Assembly (NCBI RefSeq): GCF_003384935.1 | Contig: NZ_QTTQ01000009.1 | Span: 372,001 to 436,000, forward strand | Length of the DNA: 64,000 bases | Direction of reading: 5' to 3' | Source: Lutibacter oceani | GTDB taxonomy: Bacteria > Bacteroidota > Bacteroidia > Flavobacteriales > Flavobacteriaceae | In this document: positions 1,019-64,000 of the stretch, piece by piece | How positions within the stretch are numbered: position 1 is the first letter of the stretch | Layout: every line of letters starts with the position of its first letter | Made by a program: the position numbers and the translations under genes | Notes under the pieces: model-generated | Told to the model about the DNA's origin: nothing | Seen by the model: only the letters and a program-made list of their open reading frames with translations | Databases searched by the model: none

Positions 1019-1385
1019 CAAACTCACTGATATAAAACTCAATAGCACGTAAAACATTTTCCATATCTTTTAAAACTTGTTCGTCACTAAAACGCAAAAC
1101 AGTTATCCCAAATTTATTTAATTGTTTTTCTTTCTTTACATCTTTTTGATGTACCTCTAAAAACTCGTGTGAATAACCATCTAACTCAATTCCTAATAAT
1201 AGCTCAACACAAAAAAAATCTAGAATATAATTATCAATTGGCTTTTGCCTGTGAAAATCATACCCATAAAATTGTTTTCCTTTTAACTTTCCCCAAAGTA
1301 TAATTTCTGACTTTGTTGAATTGTTTCGAAGTTCTCGTGCCAGTAATTTTAATTTTGGGTTGTATGGAATTATTTTTCTTTTCAT
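981..1385 (-). CDS. Free-standing DUF559 (Vsr-like) endonuclease-domain protein
   Basis: This 134-residue protein is a DUF559 family member, a predicted PD-(D/E)xK nuclease related to Vsr very-short-patch endonucleases. Visible family landmarks are TKSEIILW (24-31) with Glu26, YILDFFC (53-59) with Asp56, the GIELDG strand (65-70) with Glu67 and Asp69, His73, and GITVLRFSDEQVL (93-105). The last residues (HTPNPSQEGS) are encoded by a hairpin repeat, and an inverted 28/29-identical copy of that repeat sits just upstream of the start at 1398-1426. It has no link to glycan synthesis although it sits in the operon. It aligns well with the nuclease domain inserted in MetH at 60507-60923. Activity and target are unknown. 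Confidence 0.85.
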   Translation of the reverse strand: MKRKIIPYNPKLKLLARELRNNSTKSEIILWGKLKGKQFYGYDFHRQKPIDNYILDFFCVELLLGIELDGYSHEFLEVHQKDVKKEKQLNKFGITVLRFSDEQVLKDMENVLRAIEFYISEFEKHTPNPSQEGS

Positions 1386-57791: not shown

Positions 57792-58748
57792 TTAAAACAC
57801 TTCTTTTGCAATTGCCTTAATATTATCAGATTTTCCCATTGAGTAAAAATGAACTACAGGAGCACCTTTGGCTATCAATTCTTTAGATTGTTGTATGGCC
57901 CACTCAATACCTACCTGACGTACTTGCTTATTATCTTTACAACCTTCAATTGCTGCAATTAATTCCTCAGGTAAATCCAATCTAAAAATTTGAGGCAATA
58001 TTTGCTGATGTCTTTTTACTGCAATAGGTTTTATACCCGGAATAATAGGCACTGTAATTCCAATATTTCTGGCTTTTTCAACAAAATCAAAATATTTTTG
58101 ATTGTCAAAAAACATTTGAGTTACTACATAATCAGCTCCAGCGTCAACTTTTTCTTTCAATCTCCTCAAATCCGTATCCATACTTGGTGCTTCCAAATGC
58201 TTTTCTGGATATCCTGCAACGCCAATACAAAAATCAGACTTGTTAGTTGTTTCAATTATATTATGTAAATATTTACCTTGATTCAATTCTTTTATTTGAG
58301 CCACTAAATCTGATGCATAAACATTCCCATCTTTAGTTGGTACAAAATACGGTTCGTGTTTCATGGCATCTCCACGCAATGCCATAATATTATCTAATCC
58401 TAAATAATGACAATCAACTAAAACGTACTCTGTTTCTTCTTTTGTAAAACCTCCACATAACACATGTGGAATTGCATCCACATCATATTTATATTTTAAA
58501 GCTGCACAAATTCCAACTGTTCCCGGACGCATACGTGTCATTTTTTGCTCCAGCAAGCCATTGTCTTTTTTTATATAAACATATTCCTCACGCGAAGTAG
58601 TTACATCAATAAACGGAGGATTAAACTCCATTAACGGATCTACATTATTATATAAATCCTGAATGTTTTGTCCCTTTTGCGGTGGCACAATTTCAAAAGA
58701 AAACAATGTTTTTCCTTTGGCTTGTTTTATGTGATCTGTTACTTTCAT
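57792..58748 (-). CDS. metF: 5,10-methylenetetrahydrofolate reductase
   Basis: The 318-residue flavin enzyme reduces methylene-THF to 5-methyl-THF, the methyl donor for MetH. It shows LFSFEIVPPQKGQN at the N terminus with the catalytic Glu, DVTTSREEYVY, LVDCHYLGLDNIMALRGDAM and VVTQMFFDNQKYF with the PGIKPI loop. It is downstream of metH on the same strand but a 312-base, repeat-bearing gap separates them. Confidence 0.96.
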   Translation of the reverse strand: MKVTDHIKQAKGKTLFSFEIVPPQKGQNIQDLYNNVDPLMEFNPPFIDVTTSREEYVYIKKDNGLLEQKMTRMRPGTVGICAALKYKYDVDAIPHVLCGGFTKEETEYVLVDCHYLGLDNIMALRGDAMKHEPYFVPTKDGNVYASDLVAQIKELNQGKYLHNIIETTNKSDFCIGVAGYPEKHLEAPSMDTDLRRLKEKVDAGADYVVTQMFFDNQKYFDFVEKARNIGITVPIIPGIKPIAVKRHQQILPQIFRLDLPEELIAAIEGCKDNKQVRQVGIEWAIQQSKELIAKGAPVVHFYSMGKSDNIKAIAKEVF

Positions 58749-59060
58749 TTTTTTTGCTTTTTGCCTTTAGTTGCTTGCTCTTAGCTTTAAACAGCAAAAA
58801 CTTTTCAACCTTTAACTTTTTAACTATATTTTTTGGGCGTTTCCTTTCAGGCCGCGCTATTCGTTATATCTTTTTAAAATACTGTCATTACAAAACTTTA
58901 TTTTTTTTAAAGTTTGTGGCAATCTTTCAATTCAAAAGATTACTTCGTCGCAAACTCCTCGTAATGACGTTTTTCAAATTTCAAAAAGGATGCCACTTCT
59001 ATCGCTAACGCATTAAAGACCTAACAGGTTTTAAAACCTGTTAGGTCTCGTAAATTTTAA
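58749..59060. repeat. Repeat-bearing gap between metH and metF
   Basis: It holds one degenerate CGTCATTACGAGGAG-family element (minus orientation, about 58910-58972, GATTACTTCGTCGCAAACTC) and the palindrome AGACCTAACAGG-TTTTAAAA-CCTGTTAGGTCT at 59017-59048, a type widespread in Bacteroidota and here also a possible terminator for metH. No gene is visible. Confidence 0.75.
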
Positions 59061-62000
59061 TTACTCCGCTAAATTAGGATTCAACCATTTTTTTGCGGTT
59101 TCTATATCCATATTTTTTCTAGCTGCAAAATCCTTTACCTGTTCTTCAGTTATTTTACCAACTCCAAAATATTTAGAATTTTCATTCGCAAAATAGTAAC
59201 CCGAAACCGATGCTGCAGGCCACATTGCCAAACTATCTGTTAACTCAACTCCAATAGTTTCTTTTACACTCAATAAATCCCAAATTGTCCATTTTTCTGT
59301 ATGATCCGGACAGGCAGGATAACCTGGAGCCGGTCGAATTCCTTTGTATGCTTCTTTAATCAATTCTTGGTTTGACAGCACTTCATCAGAGCCATAGCCC
59401 CAATATTCAGTTCTTACTTTTTTATGTAAATATTCTGCAAAGGCCTCTGCTAATCTATCAGCCAAAGCCTTAATCATTATCGAATTATAATCATCATGGT
59501 CTTTTTCATATTCCGCAGCTAATTCTGCCGTTCCAAATCCAGTTGAAACACAAAAAGCACCCATATAATCTTTAATTCCAGTTTCCTTTGGAGCAATAAA
59601 ATCTGCCAAAGCAACACTTGGAATCCCTTCTTTCTTTTTCAATTGTTGACGTAAAGTTACAAATTGAACATTCACTTCTTTCCTGTCAGCATCTGAATAA
59701 ATTTCAATATCATCATCATTTACGGAATTCGCTGGAAAAATTCCAAAAACCGCTTTTGCAGTTAATAAGTTTTCATTTAAAATTTTAGCTAACAATAATT
59801 TAGCATCATTAAACAAATTTGTAGCACTTTCACCAACTACTTTATCCGTTAAAATATCTGGGTATTTTCCAGCCAATTCCCAACTTCTAAAAAACGGACT
59901 CCAATCTATATAATCTACCAATTTTGTTAAATCAAAATCTTCAAAAACCTGAATTCCAATAAAATTTGGTTTTGAAATATTAGCAATATCCCAATCTATC
60001 TTAAATTTATTTTTTCGTGCTTCAGCAAGTGTTATATATTCTTTTCTGGTTGATCTGTTTGCAAATCCTTCACGAACTTTTACATAATCAGCTTTAATAT
60101 CGCTAATATATTTTTGGTTTTTTCTTTTATCTAATAAATCCCCAACAACCGTTACAGCCCTGGAAGCATCATGAACATGAACTACAGCATTTTTATATTG
60201 CGGATCAATTTTTACTGCCGTATGCGCTTTTGAAGTTGTTGCTCCACCAATTAACAGTGGGACTTCAAAATTTTGACGTTCCATTTCTTTAGCCAAGTAC
60301 ACCATTTCATCTAAACTAGGTGTAATTAAACCACTTAAACCAATAGCATCTACATTTTCATCTTTTGCAGCTTGAATAATTTTTTCAGGAGCAACCATTA
60401 CACCTAAATCAACAATTTCATAATTATTACAACCTAAAACTACACCAACAATATTTTTACCTATATCGTGCACATCTCCTTTCACCGTTGCCAATAATAT
60501 TTTACCAGCCCCCCTAGCCCCCAAAGGGGGAGCCTCTAATTCTTTCTTGATTTTTGATAACACCAAATCAAGATTTGATAACACCTCTTCATTTGAAAAA
60601 CGAATCACTCGATACCCTTCATTCTCTAACCAAAAAGTTCGTTCCGTATCACTTTCCTTATTTTCTGGCAATTGATGTATTAAACCATCAATTTCAATAA
60701 TTAAATTTGTTTTTAAACAAATAAAATCAGTAATATAATTACCTATTATATGTTGCCGTCTAAATTTATAACCCTCTAATTTTTTTCCACTTAACACATC
60801 CCAAAGTAAAGATTCAGCTTCGGTTGGCTGATTTCTCATTTGTTTCGCATATTCTTTTAATAAACCATACAATACAGGGTTTGCAGTTTCCCAGTGATAA
60901 GTCCCCTTTGGGGATTTAGGGGCTTCCTTTGCAGCGTCAATAAATGGCAATAAATAAGCTACAGCGCGTTTCATAACACGTGCAGATTTAACAACTTGTG
61001 GCAAAAACATTTTCCCTGAACCAAATAAATCCCCTACCACATTCATTCCAATCATTAAGTTTTTTTCAATAACTTCAATTGGCTTTTCAGCTAGCAATCT
61101 AGCCTCTTCAACATCTTCAACAATAAACTCATCTAACCCTTTCACTAAAGAATGAGTAATTCGCTCTTGTAACGATTTTTCACGCCATGACAAATCTACT
61201 TTTCGTTCTTTTGTTGTGCTTACAACACTTTCTGCAAAATCCAACAATCGTTCAGTAGCATCGGCTCTTCTGTCTAAAATAACATCTTCTACACGCTCCA
61301 ATAAATCTTCTGGAATTTCATCATAAACTTCTAACATTGTAGGGTTTACAATTCCAATATTCATTCCTGCCTGTATTGCATAATATAAAAATACGGAGTG
61401 CATAGCTTCTCTAACTGCATTATTTCCTCTAAATGAAAACGACACATTACTTACTCCACCACTTACACTTGCATTTGGCAAATTTTTTCGAACCCAACGT
61501 GTAGCTTCTATAAAATCTATTGCATTTCTTTTATGTTCATCCATTCCTGTTGCTACAGGAAATATGTTTAAATCAAAAATAATATCTTCTGAAGGAAATC
61601 CAACTTTATGAACTAAAACATCATAGGAACGCTTTGCTATTTCTATTCTTCTTTCATAATTATCAGCCTGTCCAACTTCATCAAAAGCCATTACAATAAC
61701 TGCCGCTCCATACATTTTAATCTTTTTGGCTTGCGCTATAAATTGTGCTTCACCTTCTTTTAAACTTATGGAATTTACCACGCATTTACCTTGAGCTACT
61801 TGTAAACCAGCTTCAATGATTTCCCATTTAGAACTGTCAATCATTATTGGTACACGTGCAATATCAGGCTCTGCAGCTATCAAATTCATAAAACGAACCA
61901 TAGATTCTTTTCCGTCCAACAAACCATCATCCATATTTATGTCGATAATTTGAGCACCACCATCAACTTGATCTCTTGCTATCGCTAAGGCTTCATCAAA

Positions 62001-62180
62001 TTTTTCCTCTTTTATCAATCGCAAAAACTTACGTGAACCTGCAACATTGGTACGTTCACCCACATTTATAAAATTACTTTCTGGGGTAATTATTAAAGGT
62101 TCTAAACCTGAAAGTTTCAGCCCCCTAACCCCCGAAGGGGGAACAAATGGTGTTTCTATATTTTTTGTATCGTCTTGCAT
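59061..62180 (-). CDS. metH: Cobalamin-dependent methionine synthase C-terminal part with inserted DUF559 nuclease domain
   Basis: The 1039-residue protein carries the pterin-binding domain (about 25-290, [14 protein letters not shown]), the cobalamin cap (to about 419), the B12 domain with the axial His571 in [11 protein letters not shown], and the AdoMet activation domain with [16 protein letters not shown] near the end. Between cap and B12 domain, where other MetH proteins have a short linker, residues 420-558 form a complete DUF559 endonuclease-like domain, encoded by 60507-60923. The insert is flanked by inverted hairpin repeats and is in frame. Residues 12-20 (VPPSGVRGL) are also repeat-encoded. 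The homocysteine-binding part is a separate gene upstream. The SAM-I riboswitch further upstream should control both. Confidence 0.95.
60507..60923 (-). mobile_element. In-frame DUF559 insertion element in metH
   Basis: A 417-base (139-codon) segment. One end (60507-60533) reads GCCCCCCTAG, CCCCC-AAA-GGGGG; the other (60901-60923) reads GTCCCC-TTT-GGGG, ATTTAGGGGC, its inverted relative. Inside are 22-31-like landmarks of DUF559: [29 protein letters not shown] and [12 protein letters not shown]. The predicted active-site residues (Glu, Asp, E-x-D) are kept, so the domain may still be active. It lacks intein splice residues. Confidence 0.8.
62119..62143. repeat. Hairpin repeat in the 5' end of metH C-terminal part
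   Basis: AGCCCCCTAA then CCCCC-GAA-GGGGG on the plus strand, encoding VPPSGVRGL. Inverted partner of 62231-62255. Confidence 0.88.
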
Positions 62181-62222
62181 TATTTATATAATAGTAAATT
62201 AGAGCAAATAAAAAATTACCTG

Positions 62223-63236
62223 CTAATTAATTCCCCCTTCGGGGGTTAGGGGGCTTCTTGGCTTATAATCTTTTACCAATTCAGCGATTGCATTAATATG
62301 TGCGGGAGTTGTACCACAACAACCACCAATTATATTAATTAAACTTTTATCTAAATATTCTTTTATTTGGCTCGCCATCATTTCCGGAGTTTCATCATAT
62401 TCCCCAAAAGCATTTGGCAATCCTGCATTTGGATGCGCAGATATTCTTAAATCTGATTTCTGCGCCAACACTTCTAAATGAGGTGTTAACTGACTTGCTC
62501 CTAAAGCACAGTTAAATCCAACCGTTAATAATGGGATATGTGAAACTGAAATTAAAAAAGCTTCAGCAGTTTGTCCAGATAAAGTTCTTCCACTTGCATC
62601 GGTAATTGTTCCACTCAACATAATTGGAATATCAATCTCTTTTTCAGATTTTATTTCTTCAATGGCAAATAAAGCGGCTTTCGCATTTAATGTATCAAAT
62701 ACAGTTTCTACCAATAACAAATCTACGCCACCTTCAATTAAAGCTTCAGCTTGTTGCTTGTATGCTTTTCTTAAATCTTCAAAAGTTACTGCTCTAAAAC
62801 CAGGATCATTTACATCTGGTGACATACTTGCCGTTCTGTTTGTAGGCCCAATTGAACCTGCAACAAAACGCGGTTTATCAGGGTTTTTAGCAGTAAACTC
62901 ATCTGCTACCTCTTTTGCTATTTTAGCCGATTGATAATTCAATTCATATACAAAATCCTCCATTTCATAATCAGCCATTGCAATTGTAGTAGATGAAAAT
63001 GTATTGGTTTCTATAATATCAGCTCCCGCTTCTAAATATTTTGCGTGAATTGCTTTAATTGCTTTTGGCTGAGTAATTGAAAGCATATCATTATTTCCTT
63101 TCACAGAAATATGAAAATCTTTAAATTTTTCACCTCTATAATCCTCTTCAGTAAATTTAAACTGTTGAATCATAGTTCCCATTGCTCCATCGAGCACGAG
63201 GATTTTATTTTTTAATATGTTTCGGATATCTTCCAT
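62223..63236 (-). CDS. metH: Methionine synthase N-terminal part: homocysteine S-methyltransferase
   Basis: The 337-residue protein is the zinc-dependent homocysteine-binding domain of MetH. It begins [20 protein letters not shown], has the first zinc Cys in [11 protein letters not shown] (about 237-247) and the Cys pair in [11 protein letters not shown] near the end. In most bacteria this domain is fused to the rest of MetH; here it is separate, with 42 bases between stop and next start. The last residues ([10 protein letters not shown]) are encoded by a hairpin repeat whose inverted partner lies in the next gene. Confidence 0.95.
62231..62255. repeat. Hairpin repeat at the 3' end of metH N-terminal part
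   Basis: TTCCCCC-TTC-GGGGG then TTAGGGGGCT on the plus strand, encoding SPLTPEGG on the minus strand. Inverted partner of 62119-62143. Confidence 0.88.
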
Positions 63237-63298
63237 TTTATAAATTTGGCATAAACATAGGAAGTTAATAAGAAGAAATACTTTGTAAAGTATTGTAT

Positions 63299-63397
63299 GT
63301 TATCTTTCCATTATTTTGGTAGAATGTAGCACCTTCTTTCTTTTTAAAGGGTTGCCAAGGCTTCAACAGGTCTATTCCCTCTGCCTTTCTTAATAAC
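63299..63397 (-). ncRNA. SAM-I (S-box) riboswitch
   Basis: On the minus strand the leader reads GGCAGAGGGA, then ACCTGTTGAAGCCTTGGCAA CCC and, after a short A/G-rich loop, AAGGTGCTACATTCTACC. These are the ordered S-box elements (AGAGG-GGA, GATGAAACC-like, GGCAACC, GGTGC-A-TTC). GTTAT at 63397-63393 can pair with ATAAC at 63303-63299 to close P1. It lies 60 bases before the metH N-terminal gene and should repress it when SAM is plentiful. Confidence 0.88.
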
Positions 63398-63422
63398 TAA
63401 ATGTATGTTTATGAACTTTTTG

Positions 63423-63453
63423 CAAAGAAACGGCATATTCTTATAAATTACAA
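63423..63453 (-). promoter_or_regulatory. Likely promoter of the metH leader
   Basis: On the minus strand TTG (63453-63451), 20 bases, TTTCTTTG (63430-63423): one mismatch to TAnnTTTG and one base longer spacer than usual, but correctly placed just before the riboswitch. Confidence 0.45.
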
Positions 63454-63478
63454 ACAGCAATTAATAATTTATGAAGTT

Positions 63479-64000
63479 CTAAAGCAATTTTTCTGTTAAT
63501 TGATTCAATTGGTTCACTTTATCACTAAAATTACCTTTAATTGTTTTTCTAAATTTATTTAAGTTTTCAGCCAACTCATTAATATTTTCAGGAATTATAT
63601 CTTCTAAAAACTGACGTAATCTTTTTGCCAGTGTTGGTGATTTTCCATTGGTTGAAATTGCTATTTTAATATTCCCTTTTGTAACGATTCCTCCTAAATA
63701 AAAATCACATAAACTTGGTGTATCGGCAACATTTACAATAATATTATTAGCTTTACAATCCGCATAAATTTGTTTATTAATTTCTATATTATTTGTTGCT
63801 GCAATTACCAATTGCTTGTTTTTTAATGCCAACTTATTATAAGGTGCTTTTAGCAATGAAACTTGATATTTATTTGCTAAACGTAAAAAATCTTCATCAA
63901 AATCTTTTGAAACAACCAAAACAGTTGCATTAGGACTCGATTTCAATAAAAATGATAGTTTTTCTAATCCCACGGTTCCCCCGCCAACAATTAATACATT
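63479..64000 (-). CDS. Siroheme synthase N-terminal domain protein (precorrin-2 dehydrogenase/ferrochelatase), partial
   Basis: The frame stays open to the right edge of the window, so the start is missing. The visible 173 residues begin NVLIVGGGTVGLEKLSFLLK, the NAD-binding GGG-x2-G motif of Met8p/CysG N-terminal domains, with the usual Ala replaced by Gly. VNVADTPSLCDFYLGGIVTK and the loop IAISTNGKSPTLAKRLRQFL follow, the latter holding the family S/T-x-G-x-S/A-P signature. It should oxidise precorrin-2 and may insert iron to make siroheme for sulfite or nitrite reductase. It ends before the metH leader. Confidence 0.9.
   Translation of the reverse strand, partial: NVLIVGGGTVGLEKLSFLLKSSPNATVLVVSKDFDEDFLRLANKYQVSLLKAPYNKLALKNKQLVIAATNNIEINKQIYADCKANNIIVNVADTPSLCDFYLGGIVTKGNIKIAISTNGKSPTLAKRLRQFLEDIIPENINELAENLNKFRKTIKGNFSDKVNQLNQLTEKLL

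Follow-up and report, generated by a model that had tools for sequence, protein, structure and literature searches.

We analysed a 64,000-nucleotide stretch of the Lutibacter oceani genome (assembly GCF_003384935.1, contig NZ_QTTQ01000009.1, positions 372,001 to 436,000; hereafter the window), in which the gene for cobalamin-dependent methionine synthase, metH, carries a nuclease domain in the middle of its coding sequence. The metH open reading frame (ORF) is a single uninterrupted frame of 1,039 amino acids (Table 1). Pfam orders its domains as B12-binding_2, the cap domain (residues 337–410), then DUF559 (442–549), B12-binding (559–652) and the activation domain (750–1023). The DUF559 match (PF04480) scores 120.3 bits against a curated cut-off of 20.6 and lies in an insert of 417 bp. 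Both the ORF and the Pfam scan therefore confirm the preliminary description of this DNA, which had reported a complete DUF559 domain of about 139 codons inside MetH and in frame with it. The histidine of the KGDVHDIG motif that follows the insert, residue 571 of MetH, is presumably the cobalamin ligand. The insert has all residues conserved in the family, namely the D of DF and the E, D and H of E.DG..H, in agreement with the earlier statement that the predicted catalytic residues are retained, and a structure model of the nuclease has a mean pLDDT (predicted local distance difference test) of 80.4. The 3.38 Mb genome contains three DUF559 matches, two of which are within the window.

The ends of the insert form a 20-nt inverted pair of hairpin repeats with 80% complementarity, as had been noticed earlier. 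The hairpin motif CCCCTTTGGGGRNTTAGGGG, with up to three mismatches, has seven matches at four places in the window, compared with a mean of 0.00 in 100 shuffled sequences. The same hairpin family also forms a pair without a nuclease, which reaches from the end of a homocysteine-methyltransferase ORF into the beginning of metH and contributes the peptides SPLTPEGG and PPSGVRG to their products. Other repeat-like peptides occur upstream of metH in several relatives whose metH lacks the insert, and nuclease-free hairpins of this family are also found elsewhere in the L. oceani genome. The other DUF559 gene of the window, which is stand-alone, lies in an array of repeat units of about 111 bp with CTCTCAAGAGGGG-type hairpins.

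Table 1. The metH insert, its host domains and related repeats, in window coordinates.
Feature	Position	Strand	Basis or remark
metH, cobalamin-dependent methionine synthase (pterin-binding, cap, B12 and activation domains) with insert	59061..62180	-	ORF and Pfam
Inserted element, hairpin–nuclease–hairpin, about 139 codons	60507..60923	-	in frame; missing in 23 of 38 genus genomes
DUF559 / EDxHD-like nuclease domain	60534..60857	-	Pfam, profile match, conserved residues
N-terminal extension of the nuclease	60855..60899	-	position derived from the ORF
5' terminal hairpin repeat of the element in gene sense, + strand CCCCTTTGGGGATTTAGGGG, peptide APKSPKG	60903..60922	+	repeat search
3' terminal, inverted hairpin repeat of the element in gene sense, peptide PPLGARG	60510..60529	-	repeat search
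Cap domain of the host (B12-binding_2), preceding the insert	60951..61172	-	Pfam residues 337–410 converted
Host cobalamin-binding domain after the insert, with KGDVHDIG	60225..60506	-	Pfam residues 559–652 converted
Inverted pair without a nuclease, from the same hairpin family (62121–62141 and 62233–62253)	62121..62253		motif matches
Second DUF559 gene, stand-alone, within a hairpin-bearing repeat array (about 784–1733)	1038..1352	-	DUF559 match

A profile of the nuclease matched the structures 3hrl, an endonuclease-like protein (E = 5.5e-31), and 3r3p, a mobile intron protein that we take to be I-Bth0305I (E = 4.8e-6, profile positions 31–102 of 103). The D, E, D and H of the DUF559 copies may, on our reading of the sequences, correspond to the letters of the EDxHD motif. 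A Pfam scan of MetH (E <= 0.001) found no intein or Hint domain, and an Rfam search of positions 58500–63500 at gathering scores found no group I or group II intron RNA, its sole match being an S-adenosylmethionine (SAM) riboswitch at 63297–63399, upstream of metH genes, where such an element is expected. The resemblance of the outcome to an intein without splicing, which the preliminary description had proposed, therefore stands. Kinship to a mobile-intron protein, combined with the lack of an intein or intron around the insert, led us to read the domain as a homing-type nuclease. The part of one study that treats DUF559 assigns a gene of this family to the EDxHD homing endonucleases (PMC9403480), and passages of a review describe homing endonucleases as free-standing genes or as embedded in introns or inteins (PMC3943268). 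A DUF559/Vsr-like domain also occurs within a probable intein at locus L124 (G125:C1:236312, an ORF of 717 amino acids), for which the intein match (E = 2.2e-6, 28.0 bits) is below the Pfam cut-off of 35.8. The host of this probable intein resembles, as an impression, a phage head gene.

We compared metH across 38 genomes of the genus by the match ranges of the window MetH, and found 13 filled genes, 23 empty ones and 2 that could not be judged; relatives thus do not all carry the same insert. Two of the genus genomes share identical DNA with public Lutibacter MAGs (L055 = L284, L129 = L348). The insert frame is open in the filled genus genes, and the frame breaks of G161, G162 and G159 fall outside it. 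In a non-random sample of 83 distinct metH genes whose linker could be read, drawn from the genus, family, phylum and named records, 35 linkers were filled and 48 were nuclease-free, one of the latter containing hairpins only. The spacing between the cap domain and the KGD motif was correspondingly 23–32 residues in 47 genes, 155–197 in 35 and 49 in one (L294). MetH is occupied at more than one site among relatives, and a Flavobacterium metagenome-assembled genome (MAG) has two DUF559 inserts at two sites of one metH (L315). One filled metH, from a record that bears the title Candidatus Nitrotoga (L293), groups with Flavobacterium MetH and is probably from a misbinned contig.

Several comparisons revealed conflicts between the history of the insert and that of its host gene. 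On a tree of the metH host flanks, made by a quick method with two long branches per state and with L294 scored as empty, the linker changes between filled and empty 14 times, at least nine of them forced by well-supported branches. The MetH host parts of G179 and G181 are 96.6% identical, whereas their inserts are 57.0% identical, with a synonymous divergence (dS) of 0.27 for the host and 1.50 for the insert; G180, which is 97% identical to G181 in DNA over 60 nt on each side of the linker, has an empty linker. In the other direction, the inserts of Aquimarina and Marivirga MetH are 69.6% identical and the host parts 56.3%. Pairwise tests of synonymous divergence, in which many distances are saturated, compared 13 of the 35 filled metH genes and 10 of the 11 leuS genes of the group that we call leuS-A (L132 was left out). 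At uncorrected p < 0.001, dS was lower in the insert than in the host gene for 6 of 78 metH pairs (best p = 1.3e-7, L050–L051) and 7 of 45 leuS-A pairs (best p = 7.4e-10, L107–L111), or 13 of 123 pairs together. For the nuclease domain alone, dS was 0.14–0.31 compared with 0.58–0.60 for the host in three pairs, and showed no deficit in L048–L049 (0.78, host 0.65) or L053–L054 (1.10, host 0.59). Because of these conflicts in tree, identity and synonymous divergence, we conclude that the metH insert is mobile and crosses species independently of its host gene. The empty alleles and the conflicts support the earlier proposal that an endonuclease-bearing mobile element had entered a tolerant linker.

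Comparison of the flanks revealed no clear gradient that would mark a co-conversion tract beside the insert; the flank alignment of L059 loses register away from the insertion site, which the broken frame of G162 would lead one to expect. We considered and rejected carriage by phages or plasmids: a relative was present in 3 of 50,697 phage records and 40 of 72,556 plasmid records, in every case at less than 60% identity.

The nuclease sequence is under purifying selection and retains its catalytic residues. In the seven usable pairs out of nine (an N in L059 removed one and a missing row another), the ratio of non-synonymous to synonymous divergence (dN/dS) was 0.05–0.33 for the nuclease and 0.06–0.10 for the host. 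All four active-site residues are present in 135 of the 136 in-frame copies outside a second group of leuS inserts, leuS-B (the exception is L145), and in 88 of 94 stand-alone copies, compared with none of nine leuS-B copies. The leuS-B inserts occupy the same loop as those of leuS-A and have lost the active-site D and H and, as judged by eye, the hairpin peptides. These dead domains are still in frame and near full domain size; the lineage comprises L133–L140, L122 and L123.

DUF559 inserts are not confined to metH. With weak partial matches included (E <= 0.001), DUF559 was detected in 72 of 149 genomes of the family and 138 of 247 genomes of the phylum. Among 80 named loci, which were selected from at least 588 stretches as the most similar to the window insert and whose counts are not a frequency, we found 81 domains, 61 of them in frames of at least 220 amino acids, including 26 with the MetH motif. 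Profile hidden Markov models (HMMs) named the host for 21 frames, by which we rejected chance fusion as a reading of the long frames around DUF559. The domain is internal in leuS, recG, metG, ileS, valS and cinA, in urocanate hydratase (hutU), isobutyryl-CoA mutase (icmF), adenine deaminase and a DEXH helicase, in PaaZ (between two domains), and in HsdM-like and HsdR-like proteins. It is terminal in hemD and a dehydratase dependent on pyridoxal phosphate (N terminus) and in hisD (C terminus); the aminotransferase host of L342 matched below the family cut-off, and its insert may be N-terminal. Several insertion points are located upstream of highly conserved motifs. For wider comparisons we used 145 in-frame copies, of which 102 were assigned by host motif and 43 were classed as other; among the latter, L115, L126 and L137 are plainly leuS, and L244, L254 and L269 may be spurious frames. 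A motif shaped like that of the N-terminal extension was found in 52 of these 145 gene-resident copies and 8 of 94 stand-alone copies with a strict pattern, and in 87 and 12, respectively, with a loose one. Considering that the insert is absent from or different in the metH of relatives, and that its cousins are found in many housekeeping genes, it looks like a mobile element that dwells in proteins.

Phylogenetic analyses grouped the nucleases largely by insertion site. In a tree of 108 domains from the family, the copies in metH (support 86/84), recG (100/98), hemD (100/99) and leuS-B (100/100) each form a single branch; leuS-A does not. A set of 54 stand-alone genes, together with the hemD and dehydratase copies, splits (97/91) from the inserts of metH, leuS, recG and hisD. 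A tree of 239 domains required 53 changes of site, compared with a mean of 132.9 after shuffling, which indicates strong clustering by site.

The association with hairpins extends beyond L. oceani. We defined strong hairpins as stems with at least five GC pairs. One lay on each side of the domain in 74 of 137 in-frame copies, compared with 5 of 137 control windows, and in 50 of 87 stand-alone copies, compared with 1 of 87. An inverted flank score of at least 14 was reached by 36 of 107 domains with full flanks and by 1 of 205 controls. A direct-repeat score of at least 18 was reached by 41 of the 107, of which 37 were stand-alone genes, with a shifted control that covers inverted pairs only; long direct repeats bracket many stand-alone DUF559 genes in the family. 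Hairpins without a nuclease also occur in frame at sites of this kind: the metH linker of L294 contains a pair encoding SPLTPEGG...PPSGGGG, and leuS encodes hairpin-like peptides near residue 705 in L217, L226 and L238. In the nuclease-free L227, L228 and L232, the leuS loop that elsewhere receives the nuclease contains the short peptides SETKQS and VIPAEAGIS, which seem to resemble other repeat families. In the metH inserts of L052, L055 and L057, the loop of the 5' hairpin contains an extra in-frame piece of about 27 bp that is common to two insert lineages.

We consider it probable that the metH insert is an element built on a homing-type, EDxHD-like nuclease, with REPIN-like ends, that persists unspliced in insertion-tolerant loops. 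The unit would be a DUF559 nuclease, typically bracketed by two inverted hairpins that are open in the frame of the host. Because the hairpin sequence is open in this frame, the fusion would be translated whole and the host enzyme would carry the nuclease as an additional domain. The nuclease would cut an empty allele beside the conserved codons next to the loop, which in metH would be those of KGDVHDIG, and repair of the break from a filled allele would complete homing. The element could survive without splicing because it would occupy only insertion-tolerant loops near a conserved target sequence. The hairpins would supply harmless in-frame linkers and perhaps, by REPIN-like movement, a route to new sites.

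Such an element would combine properties of several known systems. It shares a related domain, presence and absence alleles and horizontal spread with EDxHD endonucleases of the I-Bth0305I type, but its domain would stay in the host protein, it is bounded by hairpins and we found no splicing element with it. Like an intein, it lies in frame within a conserved essential gene, carries a nuclease and has empty alleles; unlike an intein, it sits in a tolerant loop, no splicing domain was found in MetH, and the nuclease would remain in the enzyme. In-frame fusions of homing genes do exist, as in fungal mitochondrial rps3. The inverted pair of short hairpins and the dispersed copies with and without a gene recall REPINs and REPtrons as they are presented in parts of Bertels and Rainey (2011; PMC3116915), whereas the gene between the hairpins is a DUF559 nuclease rather than a RAYT. 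In-frame palindromes without a nuclease, including some in tRNA synthetase and DNA-repair genes, are described in sections of reports on Rickettsia palindromic elements (RPEs) and intragenic repetitive extragenic palindromic (REP) sequences (PMC10969869, PMC3733652). The RPEs, of about 150 bp, and the REP singles, dimers and clusters covered by those sections encode a peptide, whereas the metH insert bears a complete nuclease under selection. Our searches of the open-access literature returned no account of DUF559 elements that are flanked by palindromes or lie in frame.

A rather unlikely alternative is REPIN-like transposition, in which the hairpin pairs would be the mobile unit, moved in trans by a different enzyme, and the nuclease cargo or an accessory. 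Consistent with this idea, pairs without a nuclease are present at 62121–62253 and elsewhere in the genome, and lie in frame in the metH linker of L294 and the leuS of L238. The hairpin pattern, found in 21 of the 149 family genomes, also accompanies the nuclease: a strong DUF559 match, with a best E below 1e-8, occurs in 18 of these 21 (and in 55 of all 149), compared with 37 of the 128 without the pattern (Fisher p = 1e-6), although this enrichment ignores relatedness and the pattern partly picks up the elements' own ends. However, the nuclease lineages cluster by insertion site and the nuclease is under purifying selection, and a transposase search limited to the RAYT-type Y1_Tnp (PF01797) gave no match in this genome, compared with matches in 5 of 14 control genomes. 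An old domain fusion inherited vertically with many losses, in which the nuclease would either assist the host enzyme or be a frozen accident, is very unlikely. It would account for the single metH branch of the family tree, for the correlation between insert and host identities (r = 0.67) and for the dead domain kept in leuS-B. It is largely contradicted for metH by the pair of near-identical hosts with divergent inserts, the alternation of filled and empty linkers among such hosts, the dS conflicts and the presence of the same class of element in many unrelated genes.

Two further explanations appear extremely improbable. The insert might be removed from the mRNA or the protein, as a cryptic intein, an intron or a translational bypass; the hairpins at its ends, which we take to resemble bypass elements, and the DUF559-like domain in the probable intein of L124 would suit such a process. 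The searches for intein domains and intron RNA were negative, however, the filled metH genes of the genus keep an open frame across the insert, and the dead leuS-B copies are kept in frame at near full size. No more credible is a defence or sentinel function, in which a nuclease fused to a housekeeping enzyme would be released or activated when that enzyme is attacked. Several aminoacyl-tRNA synthetases and restriction enzymes are among the hosts, as this function might predict, but presence within the genus is patchy, leuS-B has lost the active site, and the hairpin ends are shared with nuclease-free elements.

Several observations weigh against a homing element that persists unspliced. Of the pairs tested for synonymous divergence, which are not independent and whose p values are uncorrected, 72 of 78 in metH and 38 of 45 in leuS-A show no significant deficit. 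The preliminary description had called for a look at insert-free alleles with exact junctions; the alleles exist, but about seven codons beside the insert also differ between filled and empty linkers, so that the junctions are inexact, a bare insertion was not seen and the exact insertion event is not captured. Many of the genomes are MAGs. In the 239-domain tree the insertion sites are not single clades, with eight changes for the metH linker and 13 for leuS, of which only two each are forced in a tree of 103 columns and weak support; site changes or poor resolution are mixed into this phylum-wide tree. By the same definition of a strong hairpin, 63 of 137 in-frame copies do not have one on each side. 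The part of the review cited above that covers I-Bth0305I gives this enzyme a long multi-domain structure contacting a long target (PMC3943268). The nuclease of the metH insert is about 104 amino acids long, with little else in the insert, and appears to lack such a structure, which would leave its target specificity unexplained.

Tentatively, and with less confidence than we have in the account of metH itself, we propose that these elements are a selfish hairpin–DUF559–hairpin class found throughout the phylum, which would be the autonomous partner of REPIN-like pairs, at least in this genome with its lack of a Y1_Tnp match, and would home into loops of essential proteins and persist there unspliced as an additional domain. 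Its cycle would include invasion (metH, leuS-A), remnants without a nuclease (L294 metH, L238 leuS) and decay to a dead domain that the enzyme retains (leuS-B), and would in this way supply aminoacyl-tRNA synthetases and further core enzymes with new domains.

As set out in parts of the same review, homing nucleases owe their freedom to enter conserved host genes to the self-splicing sequences with which they are associated (PMC3943268). In the core enzymes described here, tRNA synthetases, MetH and RecG among them, a nuclease of the same type lies in mid-protein, and we found nothing that removes it. The filled and empty trio in the genus makes homing without splicing directly testable. Elements of this kind would serve as a natural map of where essential proteins tolerate insertions, would be a candidate mover of hairpin repeats where a genome has no Y1_Tnp match, and would be a possible source of new protein domains.
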